Source of the DNA: Actinacidiphila epipremni
Lineage (GTDB): Bacteria; Actinomycetota; Actinomycetes; Streptomycetales; Streptomycetaceae
NCBI RefSeq assembly: GCF_012034175.1
Contig: NZ_JAATEJ010000027.1
Location: 1-64,000, forward strand
Length of the DNA: 64,000 nucleotides
Direction: 5' to 3'
Part shown: in pieces, positions 9,902 to 19,398 of the stretch
How the letters are laid out: every line of letters starts with the position of its first letter
Numbering within the stretch: the first letter of the stretch is position 1
Notes under the pieces: model-generated
What the model saw: the letters and a program-made list of their open reading frames with translations, nothing else
Databases searched by the model: none
What the model was told of the DNA's origin: nothing
Position numbers and translations under genes: made by a program

Positions 9902-9923
9902 CGCGCAGTTCCCCGCGCCCCTG
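9902..9923 (-). repeat. Single arm of the dispersed 22-bp intergenic repeat
   Basis: An exact reverse-complement arm of the repeat at 2371-2901. It lies in the 224-bp convergent gap between the sigma gene and the FrnE-like gene. Degenerate partners (gttgcgcgacc near 9813, gttgcgcgaac near 9872) precede it. No gene is seen in 9789-10012. Confidence 0.85.
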
Positions 9924-10810: not shown

Positions 10811-13800
10811 CTATTCCCCGCCCGCCAGCGCGGCGACCAGCTCCGCCGCCTCCTGCGCCGTGAGCGCCGCCCCCCGCTCGTGCGCCGCGGCCAGCTCCCG
10901 CTCGGGCAGGGCCTCGGCGGCGCGGGCCGCCACCGCGGCGGCGACCTCGCGTTCGGGGAGGCTGCGTGGCAGCACACCGCGTACGGCGTCGGCCGCGGCC
11001 AGCAGCACCGCCGCGGACCGGGAATCACCGGCGGCGCACAGCGCTTCCGCCGCGGTGTCGAGCTGCGCGGCGACGACCTGCTCGGTGCCGCCCGCCGCCT
11101 GGGCGAGCCGCAGCGCCTCGGCGGCCCGGGCCAGCGCGGCGCCCGGGTCGCCCTCGGCGAGGGTGATGCGGGCCGACAGCGCCACCAGCAGGGAGATGAA
11201 GACCGGCGGCGGAGTGCCGTCGGTGGCGTGCCCGGTGGCCAGCTCGCACAGCCGGCGGGCCTGCGCGACGTCGCCGCGGCGCAGCAGCAGCATGGCCTGG
11301 AGGTAGCGCACATAGGTGCGGGCGTCCCAGACGGAGTAGCGCTCGCAGGACTCGTCGGCCTCCCGCACCAGCCGCTCGGCGGACGCGTCGTCGCCGGCGC
11401 GGTAGGCGACCTCACCCATCCGGGCGAGCAGGAACGCCGCCTCGGCCGCCGCGCCCAGCTCCGCGCCGAGCCGGTGCGCGGCCTCCAGGTGGGCGCGGGC
11501 GGCGCGGTAGTCGCCGCGGGCCATGGCGATCTCACCGGCGGCGCTGCGGACCTGCGCGCTGACCCAGCGGTCGGAGAGGCGCTCGGTGAGCTCGGCGAGC
11601 TCGGCCCGGGTGTCGTCGGCGACGGGCAGCCCGCCGGGGGTGTCCACGGCCACGTGGGTGCGGAACATCAGCGCGACGGCCAGCTCCCAGTCGCTGCCGT
11701 ACTTGCGGCAGTTGGCGACGACCGTCTCGGTGTACTGCCGGATCTCGATCGTGCCGCCGAGGATGTAGGAGGTGAAGGGCCACAGCATGCCGGGGAAGCG
11801 GGCGGACTGCGGGCCGCTGCCGTTGTAGGCGCGCTCCAGGTAGCGCGCGGTGGCCACCGACTCGGGCGCGGAGAGCTGGTCGGCGGTGGCGTGGTCGCTC
11901 TTGACGAAGAAGAGCAGCATGCGCGCGTCGGTGCGCGGCCAGTACAGCGGGTGCGCCGGGTCCTCGGGCGGCGGGTCGCCGGCCATCGCGACGACCCGCT
12001 CCAGCCAGGCGTCCGCCTCGCTGCGGTAGTTGCGCAGCCACCAGAACCAGCCCATGGCGAGCGCGATCTCCAGCGCGTCGGCCTCCTCGCCGGCCTCGAC
12101 GGTACGGTGCAGCGCGGCCCGTACGTTGTCCAGCTCGGCCTCCAGGACCTCCAGCCAGCGCAGTTGGTCGGCGCCGCGCAGCTCGGAGTCGGCGGTACGG
12201 GCCAGGTCGCGGTAGTGGACGGTGTGCGCGCGGGCGGCCCGGGCAAGTTCTGCGGGGTGGCCGGCAGCGCGCTCGGCGGCGTATTCGTGGATGGTCTCCA
12301 GCAGCCGGTAGCGCACATGCGGGCCGCCGGCCGTGTCGCCGCCCGAGGCGCGCAGGTCGGCGACGACCAGGGACTTGTCGACGAGCTGCGCGACGGTCTC
12401 CAGCGCGTCGGGCCCGCACACCGCCTCCGCGGCGGCCAGGGTGCAGCCGCCGGCGAAGACGCTGAGCGCGCACAGCGTCGTACGTTCCCGGTCGGTGAGC
12501 AGGTCCCAGCTCCAGTCGACGACCGCGCGGAGGGTCTGCTGGCGGGGCAGGACGGTGCGGCTGCCGCTGGTCAGCAGGCGGAAGCGGTCGTCGAGGCGGT
12601 CGGCGATCTGCCGCGGGGTGAGGGCCCGCAGCCGGGCGGCGGCCAGCTCGATCGCGAGCGGCAGCCCGTCCAGGCGGCGGCAGATCTCCCGTACGGCCGC
12701 GGCGTCCGGCTCGTCGTCGCGGTACGGGGCGGCGCCGGGGCGGACGGCGGCGGCGCGTTCGGCGAACAGCCGGTAGGCGGTGGCCGGCGGCAGCGGCTCG
12801 ACGGGGCGGACGACCTCGCCGGGCACGCCCAGCGGTTCGCGGCTGGTGGCCAGCACGGTCACGCCGGGGCAGGCGGCCAGCAGCTCCGCGGTGAGGCGGG
12901 CGGCGGCGGTGATGACGTGCTCGCAGTTGTCGAGCACCAGCAGCAGGCGGCGCCGGGCGCAGTGCTCCAGCAGCCGGGCGGTGGGGTCCTCGGCGTACGT
13001 CTCGGGCCGCAGCGGGCCGGCGGCGAGGCCGACGTGCGAGTCGCGGCGGCCCAGCGCGCTGAGCACGGCCTGCGGTATGGCGGCGGGGTCGTCGACGGGG
13101 GCGAGTTCGGCGAGCCAGACGCCGTCCGGGTAGTCGCCGGCCGCGGTCTCGGCGGCTTCCTGGGCGAGCCGGGTCTTGCCGGAGCCGCCGGGCCCGGTGA
13201 GGGTCACCAGGCGGGCCCGGGCGATCTCGCGGCGCAGGTCGCGCAGGTCCGCCTCGCGGCCGACGAAGCTGGTCAGCCGGGCCCGCAGGTTGCCGGCCGC
13301 GGGCTGCGGGAGCGCGGGCGGGGGTGGGGGTGGTGGCGGGGGCGGCGGCGTGTCGCGCGGGGTGAGCAGGTCGGCGTGCAGGGCGCGCAGCTCCGGGCCG
13401 GGGTCGGCGCCGAGGGTCTCGGCGAGGGCGGTGCGGGCGTCCTCGTAGGCCATGAGGGCGTCGGCGGTGCGGCCGGCGGCGCGCAGGGCGGTGATGAGCT
13501 GGACGTGCACGGTCTCGTCGAGGGGGTGCGCGAGCACGGCCTCGCGCAGCTCGGGCAGTACGTCGGCGGCGTGCCCGAGGGCGAGTTCGGCGTCGACGCG
13601 GAGCCGCTGGGCGGTGCGGTGCAGGGCCTCGGGGCGGGCGGCCTGGACGGCGCGCTCGGGCAGGTCGGCGAGGGCGGGGCCGCGCCACAGGGCCAGGCCC
13701 CGGGTGAGCGTGTCGGCGGCGGTGCGGGGGTCGCCGGCGGCGAGGGCGGCTTCGCCGGCGCGGACGAGCCGCTCGAAGGTGTGCAGGTCGACCGCGTCGG

Positions 13801-14074
13801 GCCCGGCCGCCAGCCGGTAGCCGCCGGGCTCGGAGGTGACGGCGTCCCGGCCGACCGCCCGGCGCAGCCGGGCCACCAGCGCCTGGAGGGCGCCGGTGGC
13901 GTCGGCGGGGGGATCGCCGGCCCACACCTGGTCGATGAGGGTGCCCGCGCCGACCGGCCGCCCGGCCTCGGCGGCAAGAGCCGCGGCCAGCGCCCGTACG
14001 CGTACGCCGCCGAGCGGCACGACCGTCCCGTCGTCCCGTCTGACCTCGGTCACGCCGAGCACCGAATACCGCAC
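10811..14074 (-). CDS. AfsR/SARP-type regulator with NB-ARC ATPase and TPR domains
   Basis: A 1087-residue transcriptional activator of the large SARP class. It has an N-terminal OmpR-like winged helix (1-95; GTLIDQVWAGDPPADATGALQALVARLRR) and a BTAD domain (about 98-245). A polyproline linker (11 consecutive Pro) leads to an NB-ARC ATPase with Walker A GPGGSGKTRLAQEAAE near residue 295 and Walker B LLLVLDNCEHV. The C-terminal half is TPR-like. The GTG at 14074 follows gggggag and begins only 22 bp after the flavoprotein monooxygenase stop, so the two are probably cotranscribed. Such proteins usually activate secondary metabolism, but no biosynthetic cluster is visible here. Its target genes are unknown. 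Confidence 0.92.
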   Translation of the reverse strand: MRYSVLGVTEVRRDDGTVVPLGGVRVRALAAALAAEAGRPVGAGTLIDQVWAGDPPADATGALQALVARLRRAVGRDAVTSEPGGYRLAAGPDAVDLHTFERLVRAGEAALAAGDPRTAADTLTRGLALWRGPALADLPERAVQAARPEALHRTAQRLRVDAELALGHAADVLPELREAVLAHPLDETVHVQLITALRAAGRTADALMAYEDARTALAETLGADPGPELRALHADLLTPRDTPPPPPPPPPPPALPQPAAGNLRARLTSFVGREADLRDLRREIARARLVTLTGPGGSGKTRLAQEAAETAAGDYPDGVWLAELAPVDDPAAIPQAVLSALGRRDSHVGLAAGPLRPETYAEDPTARLLEHCARRRLLLVLDNCEHVITAAARLTAELLAACPGVTVLATSREPLGVPGEVVRPVEPLPPATAYRLFAERAAAVRPGAAPYRDDEPDAAAVREICRRLDGLPLAIELAAARLRALTPRQIADRLDDRFRLLTSGSRTVLPRQQTLRAVVDWSWDLLTDRERTTLCALSVFAGGCTLAAAEAVCGPDALETVAQLVDKSLVVADLRASGGDTAGGPHVRYRLLETIHEYAAERAAGHPAELARAARAHTVHYRDLARTADSELRGADQLRWLEVLEAELDNVRAALHRTVEAGEEADALEIALAMGWFWWLRNYRSEADAWLERVVAMAGDPPPEDPAHPLYWPRTDARMLLFFVKSDHATADQLSAPESVATARYLERAYNGSGPQSARFPGMLWPFTSYILGGTIEIRQYTETVVANCRKYGSDWELAVALMFRTHVAVDTPGGLPVADDTRAELAELTERLSDRWVSAQVRSAAGEIAMARGDYRAARAHLEAAHRLGAELGAAAEAAFLLARMGEVAYRAGDDASAERLVREADESCERYSVWDARTYVRYLQAMLLLRRGDVAQARRLCELATGHATDGTPPPVFISLLVALSARITLAEGDPGAALARAAEALRLAQAAGGTEQVVAAQLDTAAEALCAAGDSRSAAVLLAAADAVRGVLPRSLPEREVAAAVAARAAEALPERELAAAHERGAALTAQEAAELVAALAGGE

Positions 14075-14096: not shown

Positions 14097-15614
<1,518 letters not shown>

Positions 15615-15671
15615 CTACGAACCGGCTGATTACTTACCTTCCGGCTGAGGCCGCCGATTCTGCCCCCCAAG

Positions 15672-15694
15672 GGGGGCCTTGCGGCAAGGCCCCC
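15672..15694. promoter_or_regulatory. Rifamycin-associated element (RAE)-like palindrome
   Basis: A perfect 23-bp palindrome: arm gggggccttgc (15672-15682), one central base (15683), arm gcaaggccccc (15684-15694). It matches, from memory, the GC-rich inverted repeat called RAE that is found upstream of rifamycin-inactivation genes in actinomycetes and confers rifamycin induction. A TATAGC hexamer lies on its upstream side for the minus strand (about 15702-15707). The start codon of rox is 139 bp downstream. Confidence 0.8.
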
Positions 15695-15711
15695 ACCCCG
15701 CTATACCTTGA

Positions 15712-15741
15712 AGAGGGCAAGGAGCGGACTCCTTGCCCTTT
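15712..15741 (-). terminator. Strong hairpin insulating tmk from rox
   Basis: A 10-bp perfect stem, gggcaaggag (15715-15724) with ctccttgccc (15729-15738), has a cgga tetraloop and is extendable by A-T and G-T pairs. It lies between the end of the minus-strand tmk transcript and the rox control region, so it probably terminates tmk read-through. It lacks a long T run on the minus strand. Confidence 0.6.
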
Positions 15742-15841
15742 CGCTTTCCCGGGCCCGAGCGCATGCATGGAGCTATGGCGGTGCCGCTCCGGGCTGCTGC
15801 TTGCGGTGGTTTGCGCGACCATCCGCCGGTGAGTGGCTTGT

Positions 15842-15987
15842 CGCGCAGTTCCCCGCGCCCCTGGTATGCCGACCCGCGCCGCAGCCGTAAGCCCATCGGG
15901 GGGGACCCCCACGCCTTGCCGGGTGCGACGGCAGGGGCTCGTCTCCGCGCGTGAGGCCAACCAATCAGGGGCGCGGGGAACTGCGCG
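15842..15987. repeat. Outward-facing pair of dispersed repeat arms in the tmk-rox gap
   Basis: The gap 15742-16078 contains no gene. Exact copies of the 22-bp arm lie at 15842-15863 (reverse) and 15966-15987 (forward), pointing away from each other with 102 bp between. In the full units at 2371-2901 the arms face inward. This suggests two truncated units meeting here, possibly a trace of the rearrangement that placed rox beside tmk. Confidence 0.85.
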
Positions 15988-16078
15988 AGCAACCGGCCAC
16001 CGGCGGATGGTCGCGCGGGCACCGCATGGGGCAGCCCGGGGCGGGCCGACCGCCCGGGCGCAGGGGCCTCGGGGAAAC

Positions 16079-19000
16079 CTAGCGGGGCGGGTCTTCGTGG
16101 GGGCCGAGGAGTTCGTCCGCGAGGGTGGGGAGGTCGTCGAGGGGGGTTTCCTCGGCCCAGTGGGGGCGGGGGCGGCGGGGGGCGGGGGATGCCGTGGGGA
16201 GTTCGCGGGTGCGTTCGGGGTCGGTGGGCTCGGGGCGGAAGAGCCACGGGGGGACGCGGTCGGCCGGGTCGGCGTCGCGCGCGGTGCCGGGGACGGGCGG
16301 CGGGGCGTCGGGGCGCTCCGCGGGTTCCGCCGGCTCGGCCGGCACCGCAGGGAGCACCGCGGTCTCGTCGGACGCCGAGGCCGGCCCCTCACCGGGCTCG
16401 TCCTCATGCGGCGGCTGCACCGCAGGCAGCACCTTCGTCTCGTCGGCGTCAGGTTCCTCGTCCGGCGGCGCCACCGGCGGCAGCACCGTCGTCGTCTCGG
16501 CGTCGTCCGCCGGGACGACCGGCGTGACGATCGTCGTCGCCTCGTCGTCGGACGCGGGCGCCTCGACCTCCGCGGCGGCGGACGCCGCGGCCCTCGCGGC
16601 CTCGGCCCGCAGCAGCGCCTCCTCCGCCCGGCGCTGCTTCTCCAGCCGCCGGGCCTCCGCCTCCGCGCGCAGCCTGGCCTGCTCCTCGGCGAGCCGCCGC
16701 AGCCGGGCCTGCTCGGCCTCACGCGCGGCCTCCTCGGCCGCAACGCGCGCGGCCTCCTCCACCGCGAGCCGGTCCGCCTCCTCCTGGCGCAGCCGGGCGG
16801 CCTCCGCCTCCTGCGCGGCCTTGCGCTCGGCGATCTCCTGCCGGGCGGCCTCCTCCGCGGCGAGCCGCCGCTCCTCCTCCTCGCGGCGCAGCTTCTCCAG
16901 CTGCTCGCGCCGCTCCCGCTCCTTGCGCTCTTCCTCGGCCTTGCGCGCCGCCTCCTCCGCGGCGAGCCGCGCGGCCTCCTCGGCGGCCTTGCGCTCGGCC
17001 TCGGCCCGCGCCGCGATCTCCTGCTCCGACAGCGGCAGCACCTCGTCGAGCCGGTGCCGTATCACCGTCGTGACGGCCTCCGGCTCCTGCCCCGCGTCGA
17101 TCACGAGGTAACGGGACGGGTCCGCGGCGGCCAACGTGAGGAAGCCGGACCGTACCCGCTGGTGGAACTCGGGCGGCTCGGACTCGAGCCGGTCGGGCGC
17201 CTCGGTGAAGCGTTCCCGCGCGGTCTCGGGCGAGACGTCGAGCAGGACGGTCAGGTGCGGGACGAGCCCGCCGGTGGCCCAGCGGTTGATGCGGGCGATC
17301 TCGGTGGGGGCCAGTTCGCGGCCGGCGCCCTGGTAGGCGACGGCGGAGTCGATGTAGCGGTCGGTGATGACGACCGCGCCGCGCGCGAGAGCCGGCCGTA
17401 CGACCGTCTCGATGTGCTCCGCGCGGTCCGCCGCGTAGAGCAGCGCCTCCGTGCGGTGCGAGATGCCGCCGGACGAGACGTCCAGCAGGATCGATCGCAG
17501 CCGCTTGCCGACGGCGGTCGCGCCCGGCTCGCGGGTGACGACGACCTCGTGGCCCTTGGCCCTGATCCAGCTCGCCAGCGCCTCCACCTGCGTGGACTTG
17601 CCGGCGCCGTCGCCGCCCTCGACGGCGATGAAGAAGCCCGCCTCGGACGTCGCGGTGGCCGGCTCCGCGCCGCGCAGCGACTCGCGCAGGTCGCGCCGCA
17701 GCGGCACCCCGCGGCGGTCGTCGGTCTTGCCGAGCACGAGCGCGGCGACCGGCAGCAGCAGCGCGCCGACCAGCATGAGCGTGTACGCGGCGCCGGCGTG
17801 GTCGAAGGTGAAGTGGCCGTGGTGCACGCGGTGCGGCCCGATCGCGGCGGCGAGCAGCGGCGCGACGATCGCGGCGACGCCGAGCGCGGCACGCGAGACG
17901 GCCTGCAGGTGCTCGACGGTACGGGCCCTGCGGGTCTGCTCGGCCTCCTGTTCGACGAGGGCGTGCCCGGTGTTGGCGCTGACCCCGGCGGCGACGCCGG
18001 CCAGCAGCGCGAGCGCGAGCATCGTCGTCGGGTCGGGCACGAGGCCGGTGAGCAGCAGCGCGATGCCGGTCAGGCCGATCGCGAGGGCCAGCAGGCGGCG
18101 CCGGGACAGGCCCGGCAGCGTCCGCGGGCCGATCCGGATGCCGATGACGGTGCCGCCGGTGAGCAGCAGGACGAGCAGCCCGAAGCCGGTCGGCCCGAAG
18201 CCCATCGCGGCGGCGTGCAGCACCGCGACGGCGACGGCCGCGGCGATCGCGCCGGCGACCGCGGCGGTGGACAGCACGAGCAGCGGCAGCGCGCCGGTCC
18301 GGCCGTTCTCCGCGCCGGCCGGGCCCTTCGGCAGCCGCAGCCCCTCCAGCGGGGAACGCGGCCGGGCGGCGGTGCCGGCGGGCAGCTCCAGCGCGGAGAG
18401 CACGGCGATCGAGGAGGAGAACAGCCCCGCGGCGACGTACGAGGACAGCGCGACCTGGTGCAGGTCGAACCAGTCGACGCCGGTCGCGAGCAGAATGTTG
18501 ACGAGCGTGATGACGACCATCGCCGCGGCGGCGAGCGGCAGCGCGACGAAGCTGGTCCGCAGGTCGAGGCGGTGCAGCGTCGCGAGCCGGTCGGGCGCCG
18601 GCCGTACGGTGGTGTCGCCGGGCGCCGGCAGCAGGCCGGGGGCGGCGCCGTCCTTGGCGATCGCCCACAGGCGCTCGGCCGCGCCGGCGGCGAAGACGCT
18701 GAGCAGCAGCCATACGTATGCCGAGTCCGGCGTCCAGGTGATCCACAGCGGGGCGACGATGAACAGGCCAAGGCGTACGCCGTCGGCCCCGATCATCGTC
18801 CAGCGGCGGTCCAGCGGGCCGTCCTGCGCGGTGAGCCCGGCGAGCGGGCCGAGCAGCACGGCGCCGAACAGTACGGTCGCGACCAGGCGCGCCGCGAACA
18901 CCGCGGCGGCGGCGAAGGCGACCCCGCGGTACCCGCCCCCGAAGGCGGCGGCCCCGGAGGCCGCCTGCACCGTCAGCAGGAGCAGCACCAGCAGGCCGAG

Positions 19001-19156
19001 GCGGTCGGCGACCGCGCCGGTCATCTGGGCGTTCCACAGCTTCCGCAGCGAGGGGATTTTGAGCAGCGCGCGGACTGCGCGGTCGCGCGAATCGGCGGCC
19101 AAATCCTCCGCGAACGCGTCCGTGACGTCAGCGGGCTGCGGCGTAGATGGCGTCAT
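16079..19156 (-). CDS. tmk: Thymidylate kinase fused to MFS-like membrane domain and coiled-coil tail
   Basis: A 1025-residue fusion. Residues about 40-480 form an MFS-like domain with some 12 hydrophobic helices. Residues about 505-710 are dTMP kinase, with P-loop VEGGDGAGKST, the DR(Y/H) motif ITDRYIDSAVAYQGAGRELA and LID-region residues. Next come about 150 residues of Arg/Glu/Ala heptads (AERKAAEEAARLAAEEAARK; a long coiled coil), then an acidic Thr/Pro tail. Thymidylate kinase makes dTDP for DNA synthesis. The fused form is standard in Streptomyces. It follows topA on the same strand. In Streptomyces reference genomes it is followed by holB (DNA polymerase III delta'), which is absent here. 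Confidence 0.93.
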   Translation of the reverse strand: MTPSTPQPADVTDAFAEDLAADSRDRAVRALLKIPSLRKLWNAQMTGAVADRLGLLVLLLLTVQAASGAAAFGGGYRGVAFAAAAVFAARLVATVLFGAVLLGPLAGLTAQDGPLDRRWTMIGADGVRLGLFIVAPLWITWTPDSAYVWLLLSVFAAGAAERLWAIAKDGAAPGLLPAPGDTTVRPAPDRLATLHRLDLRTSFVALPLAAAAMVVITLVNILLATGVDWFDLHQVALSSYVAAGLFSSSIAVLSALELPAGTAARPRSPLEGLRLPKGPAGAENGRTGALPLLVLSTAAVAGAIAAAVAVAVLHAAAMGFGPTGFGLLVLLLTGGTVIGIRIGPRTLPGLSRRRLLALAIGLTGIALLLTGLVPDPTTMLALALLAGVAAGVSANTGHALVEQEAEQTRRARTVEHLQAVSRAALGVAAIVAPLLAAAIGPHRVHHGHFTFDHAGAAYTLMLVGALLLPVAALVLGKTDDRRGVPLRRDLRESLRGAEPATATSEAGFFIAVEGGDGAGKSTQVEALASWIRAKGHEVVVTREPGATAVGKRLRSILLDVSSGGISHRTEALLYAADRAEHIETVVRPALARGAVVITDRYIDSAVAYQGAGRELAPTEIARINRWATGGLVPHLTVLLDVSPETARERFTEAPDRLESEPPEFHQRVRSGFLTLAAADPSRYLVIDAGQEPEAVTTVIRHRLDEVLPLSEQEIAARAEAERKAAEEAARLAAEEAARKAEEERKERERREQLEKLRREEEERRLAAEEAARQEIAERKAAQEAEAARLRQEEADRLAVEEAARVAAEEAAREAEQARLRRLAEEQARLRAEAEARRLEKQRRAEEALLRAEAARAAASAAAEVEAPASDDEATTIVTPVVPADDAETTTVLPPVAPPDEEPDADETKVLPAVQPPHEDEPGEGPASASDETAVLPAVPAEPAEPAERPDAPPPVPGTARDADPADRVPPWLFRPEPTDPERTRELPTASPAPRRPRPHWAEETPLDDLPTLADELLGPHEDPPR

Positions 19157-19269: not shown

Positions 19270-19398
19270 AGGGGCGCGGGGAACTGCGCGCGCAACCGGC
19301 CACCGGCCGGTGGTCCGGACACGACAGCAACAGCCCCTTTCGGACGGTGACGGCCTGCGGGCCGCATACGGCTAGTCGCGCAGTTCCCCGCGCCCCTG
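19270..19398. repeat. Full dispersed repeat unit between topA and tmk
   Basis: Inward-facing arms aggggcgcggggaactgcg (19270 onward) and its complement ending at 19398 enclose about 85 bp. The interior keeps accggccggtggtccgga but is otherwise different from the units at 2371-2901. It fills most of the 324-bp gap 19157-19480, which has no gene. On the minus strand it lies just after the topA stop. Confidence 0.88.

Follow-up and report, generated by a model that had tools for sequence, protein, structure and literature searches.

The rox locus and its palindrome

The window, by which we mean the whole analysed stretch of 64,000 nucleotides of the Actinacidiphila epipremni genome (contig NZ_JAATEJ010000027.1), carries on its minus strand the gene rox (14097-15533, 478 aa). 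Its product, described in the earlier note as rifampicin-monooxygenase-like, passes the equivalog cut-off of NCBIfam NF033145 over its full length (869 bits against 800, residues 3-475), and its best solved-structure match is rifampin monooxygenase (PDB 5vqb/6brd; E 3.7e-218 for 5vqb). Judged by this curated family, it is a true rifampin monooxygenase. An AfsR-like SARP regulator of 1087 aa with BTAD, Trans_reg_C and NB-ARC/AAA domains (10811-14074, minus strand) begins 22 bp past the end of rox, and because of this short gap co-transcription of the two genes is possible. However, the 'rox-SARP unit' of the earlier note is not supported as a conserved unit. Elsewhere in the genus, 11 rox loci searched over 1.5 kb downstream have no SARP gene beside rox, nor do 80 rox loci from other genomes; the adjacency is found only in this genome.

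At 15672-15694 the sequence reads GGGGGCCTTGC-G-GCAAGGCCCCC, with 11-bp arms fully complementary about one central base, and 138 bp separate this perfect 23-bp palindrome from the GTG start of rox. By size alone it is only mildly unusual: 0.16 bare odd palindromes with arms of at least 11 are expected in the window at its 74% GC, and one is observed, namely this one. The same palindrome sequence is absent from shuffles. The earlier note recognized in it the rifamycin-associated element (RAE) and expected a further copy near helR in the genome. A whole-genome search with the core pattern of the known RAE finds exactly two copies in 8.2 Mb, and none with the reversed pattern as a control. The second copy, on contig 31, precedes a helR-type gene, whose locus is incomplete, hence its score below the full-length cut-off. 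The match to the RAE sequence is not due to chance.

The element also accompanies rox elsewhere. Among 80 orthologous rox loci from 80 contigs the strict core lies upstream of the gene in 71; three more have the core with one mismatch and intact flanks, which gives 74 of 80, and the RAE is missing in six. Together with the core match and the helR-type gene as the other carrier in the genome, this bears out the RAE identity and the presence of the element upstream of orthologous rox genes. The palindrome has the 19-bp core of the RAE, TTGC-N-GCAA with G/C-rich arms, and it stands upstream of a rifamycin-inactivating gene, assigned by NF033145, over the predicted -35 of its promoter. Its identification as an RAE is thus supported, and by analogy with published RAEs rox would be inducible by rifamycin.

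In the alignment of the rox loci, the conserved region spans roughly -68 to +45 relative to the palindrome centre, i.e. about 115 bp. The conserved order is a hairpin, CTCTCAAC-N-TATA-GCGCACC, the palindrome, and CAGAAT or CACAAT at +21 to +26 on the rox side. The window carries CAGAAT at precisely this place, which agrees with the orientation toward rox assumed in the earlier note. The core TTGCNGCAA and the GGG/CCC arms at ±7 to 9 are conserved in 202 aligned elements. We suggest that the palindrome forms just the core of a bidirectional promoter that extends over about 115 bp and is far larger than the known 19-bp RAE.

A dispersed repeat with the core GGGGCGCGGGGAACTGCGCG occurs in 11 mismatch-free copies in the window. 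Its sites include 15813-15863 and 15966-16016, as well as 2373-2899, 9902-9921 and 19271-19396. Often the copies form inverted pairs about 106-126 bp apart in intergenic DNA, with three pairs at a 200-bp period in 2373-2899.

Predicted mirror-placed promoters and a predicted terminator hairpin

The predicted rox promoter lies on the minus strand and consists of the -35 TTGCCG (15682-15687), placed from the sequence and the rox locus alignment, and, after a 19-nt spacer, the -10 CAGAAT (15657-15662). CAGAAT or CACAAT stands at exactly this place in 68 of 71 rox loci, and the consensus of the 202 aligned elements at +21 to +26 is CANAAT. On the plus strand, sequence and rox locus comparison predict an opposing promoter with the -35 TTGCGG (15679-15684), again a 19-nt spacer, and the -10 TACCTT (15704-15709) of the TANNNT class, at -21 to -26 from the centre. 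Each -10 is thus separated by 19 nt from a TTGCNG -35, the two -10 elements mirror each other across the palindrome, and the -35 elements overlap within TTGCNGCAA. The palindrome itself, which has no strand of its own, would be made of these overlapping -35 elements and the conserved GGG/CCC arms.

The opposing -10 is kept almost everywhere. With no constraint from the search, 70 of 71 rox loci have TANNNT at exactly -21 to -26, against a background of 0.1% per position. The T at -26, which the composite pattern does not impose, is found in 130 of 131 of its matches (background 0.1-0.2% per position in flanking DNA). In other actinobacterial classes the motif is present in 12 of 13 elements, where TA was imposed and the final T was not. 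Mycobacterial elements often miss TATAGC and yet keep the opposing TANNNT at -21 to -26 (14 of 15, nothing imposed); the 15th locus, L247, fits the rule if read from the other side. In the variants TATAGT, TAAAAT and TATCCT the T, A and T are fixed and the other bases vary. Mycobacterial promoters have TANNNT as their -10 motif (PMC3898074). The same mycobacterial variants fix the register as TANNNT with a 19-nt spacer, and TATACC with a 17-nt spacer was discarded as a candidate for the opposing -10. A generic sigma-70 and terminator scan gives no match at the site, its consensus being too strict for such sites. The opposing -10 is the better match of the two; the rox -10 (CANAAT) with its GC-rich downstream bases looks weaker. 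Comparison of about 200 relatives suggests that the palindrome is the common centre of two back-to-back promoters, one for rox and one for a tiny self-terminating RNA.

The hairpin at 15714-15739 (plus strand, stem AGGGCAAGGAG/CTCCTTGCCCT) is an 11-bp perfect inverted repeat with a fold z of -2.1 and starts about at the predicted opposing +1 (15716). We predict it to be the stem of an intrinsic terminator, followed by the T-rich tail TTTCGCTTT (15739-15747). Past the hairpin the T-tract is conserved on the opposing strand only: T reaches 0.76, 0.80 and 0.69 at the first three positions against a background of 0.18, and eight positions hold 4.7 T on this side of the hairpin versus 2.3 on the other. 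The arms covary, with a stem score of 6.97 for the own arms versus 5.15 ± 0.08 when left arms are swapped between sequences; without the commonest arm the values are 6.03 and 4.48 ± 0.10. About one third of the elements have a weak hairpin or none by stem scoring, so the terminator, as judged from the stems, is common rather than universal.

Position -33 lies seven bases beyond the opposing -10; 73 of the 130 strong hairpins have their end there, and in 199 of 202 elements the opposing strand carries G at this position. From this placement we predict that the first base of the terminator is also the first base of the opposing RNA, whose length would be about 30 nt (27-32 nt). In the window it would run on the plus strand from about 15716 to 15742-15747. 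Two other candidates were rejected: a hairpin at the start of the rox transcript shows no covariation (3.17 own, 3.18 swapped), and a match to the RNA family RAGATH-13 at the site is sub-threshold (18.8 bits against a gathering score of 80) and is taken as chance. The gene at 16079-19156 (minus strand), an MFS-like membrane part fused to a thymidylate kinase with a long charged tail, is convergent with the predicted opposing transcript.

Genes behind the element

We searched 394 genomes of the class for TATA, core and CANAAT at set distances from each other. The full layout is found in 129 of these genomes and in 41 of 138 genera, and the reversed pattern gives no match in the same 394 genomes. 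We examined 132 elements, i.e. 100 survey loci, 30 search loci, the second genomic copy and the window, and grouped the downstream genes by single-linkage BLAST. In every case the gene directly downstream belongs to one of five kinds: HelR/HelD (62), Rox (38), Rph-type phosphotransferase (17), Rgt-like glycosyltransferase (12) and DrrA-like ABC ATPase (3). Representatives of HelR, Rph and DrrA score above curated cut-offs; the Rgt-like ones have Rgt as best match yet stay below the Rgt cut-off. Another 13 elements come from other classes of this phylum; 11 of them stand before Rox, one before Rph and one before Arr. A gene for Arr, rifampin ADP-ribosyltransferase, stands behind the module at L306, from another actinobacterial class, and at L252, from a mycobacterial genome.

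Three genomes of a single family have the DrrA-like ABC transporter genes directly behind the full RAE module (L155:360-1960, L156 and L157), at L155 accompanied by a permease-like gene. These transporters are candidate rifamycin exporters. The module pattern so far marks only genes of the rifamycin-resistance type, and thus it can reveal new ones, such as these.

Proposed switch and its alternatives

Comparison of relatives establishes the element, its extent, the mirror geometry, the opposing -10, the covarying hairpin with its T-tract and the gene association. From these we infer both transcripts, their mutual exclusion and the rifamycin inducibility of rox in this strain. We suggest, with a probability of roughly 0.6, that a conserved bidirectional promoter, responsive to rifamycin, is centred on the palindrome, with the opposing promoter restraining rox and an additional component taking part in the switch.

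In the proposed mechanism two primary-sigma promoters would face apart with overlapping -35 elements (TTGCNGCAA). The weak CAGAAT -10 would drive rox on the minus strand, and the mirror TANNNT -10 would start an RNA that is the intrinsic terminator itself and ends after about 30 nt. Since the promoters diverge and share the -35, the polymerases must exclude each other: polymerase would fit in one orientation at a time, and without the drug the opposing promoter probably keeps it off rox, which may explain tight repression in this condition. With rifamycin present the choice would shift toward the rox direction. As to the nature of the switch, we hypothesize that a second reader of the GGGNCTTGC half-sites (a putative regulator, possibly contacting sigma) or the short RNA takes part; a drug effect differing between the two promoters is a further option.

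Such a component is needed because steric competition alone yields only repression. In a steady-state kinetic model with two orientations and one shared -35, drug-locked polymerase lowers rox transcription at every drug level tried; a larger locked fraction can only reduce the rate expression. We therefore rejected plain steric competition as the whole mechanism. Other points also count against the proposed switch, among them the third or so of the elements that have no strong hairpin. The GGG/CCC arms do not belong to an ordinary promoter and suggest that some protein besides sigma is involved. Also, a review (PMC10719064) reports a sense P1 start of Mycobacterium smegmatis helD that precedes the RAE by about 20 bp; it lies close to where the opposing transcript is predicted to begin and may speak against the reading of an opposing promoter.

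The same arms, conserved at ±7 to 9 though sigma has no need of them, are what a conventional operator would explain. There, a rifamycin-responsive factor would bind the 19-bp palindrome over the rox -35 and repress until the drug arrives, and the opposing promoter and hairpin would be secondary, e.g. insulation against leaky divergent transcription. The literature proposes a putative factor (PMC12802891, PMC10719064), and pure competition cannot account for induction. But the DNA-binding factor is putative, and a nuisance promoter would not retain its -10 in nearly every copy across several actinobacterial classes; we regard the operator as possible, though on the unlikely side. A scheme with no dedicated drug-binding regulator can also be imagined for the whole phylum, where polymerase idling on the self-terminating opposing promoter, or its tiny RNA, holds the resistance genes off and rifamycin acting on polymerase frees them. 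This version of the RAE as a sensor we consider doubtful.

Less probable still is polymerase as the sole sensor in the style of the convergent alarm of Bacillus subtilis, where drug-arrested polymerase at a fast opposing promoter would free the slow rox promoter. This logic has been described for helD and pps of B. subtilis (PMC12802891), and the better opposing -10 with the weaker-looking rox -10 fits it. Here, however, the promoters diverge and overlap fully, so that an arrested polymerase obstructs rox; the competition model produces no induction, just repression; and the B. subtilis regulation is lost once the promoters are moved close enough to clash (PMC12802891). We find it hardly credible that the conserved flanks are a larger protein-binding site with a coincidental -10 and terminator. 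The long pyrimidine-rich CTCTCAAC, conserved between hairpin and TATA, would suit it, but the hairpin arms covary while their sequence changes, and the T-tract is on one strand only. Moreover, the hairpin stands at a constant distance from the -10 that suits a start site, and TATAGT, TAAAAT and TATCCT keep T, A and T as other bases change.

The proposed bidirectional promoter resembles known systems in part. With the known RAE, a 19-bp palindrome of Actinobacteria, it shares the core, the gene kinds (rox, helR, rgt, rph, arr) and the overlap with the target-gene -35. The RAE is needed for rifamycin induction of helD and overlaps the helD P2 -35 (review, PMC10719064). However, it has been described solely as a palindrome that may bind a factor, and its mechanism and factor are given as unknown (PMC10719064, PMC12802891). 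The opposing promoter, the self-terminating RNA and the extent of about 115 bp are added here, and we found no description of them in the literature searched, outside which the original RAE and HelR papers lie. Upstream of B. subtilis helD and pps a strong fast antisense and a weak slow sense promoter converge, with a short terminated antisense RNA (PMC12802891). The likeness is in the weak sense promoter and the antisense promoter closely trailed by a terminator, here predicted from sequence, before helD or a rifampicin-modifying enzyme. Unlike the B. subtilis promoters, which are separate elements converging about 39 bp apart, those at rox do not face each other with separate -35 and -10 elements; they diverge from one palindromic -35, and because of this the B. 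subtilis mechanism cannot be copied over. Bidirectional promoters of Escherichia coli (PMC12825309) likewise use pseudo-symmetric DNA and polymerase in two mutually exclusive orientations, but they share the -10, whereas here the -35 is shared and the mirror-placed -10 elements are 41 bp apart.

A January 2026 paper (PMC12802891) describes rifamycin sensing through the RAE in actinobacteria, including mycobacteria, as unresolved. From this architecture the opposing -10 and the self-terminating hairpin emerge as two concrete targets for mutation, and it predicts a small RNA searchable in existing RNA-end data.

Last, two rox loci are organized differently. In one without the RAE (L041:3900-4001), a long inverted repeat (CTTTTGAAGGGTT...AACCCTTCAAAAG) immediately precedes the gene. 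At rox of Rhizocola hellebori (L029:3840-4001) the second palindrome half and the opposing -10 are lost and a remnant of the rox-side -35 and -10 is kept; two GAGAGCGCTCTC palindromes just upstream resemble operators of the LacI family. This single case is what a swap of the RAE switch for ordinary repression would look like.
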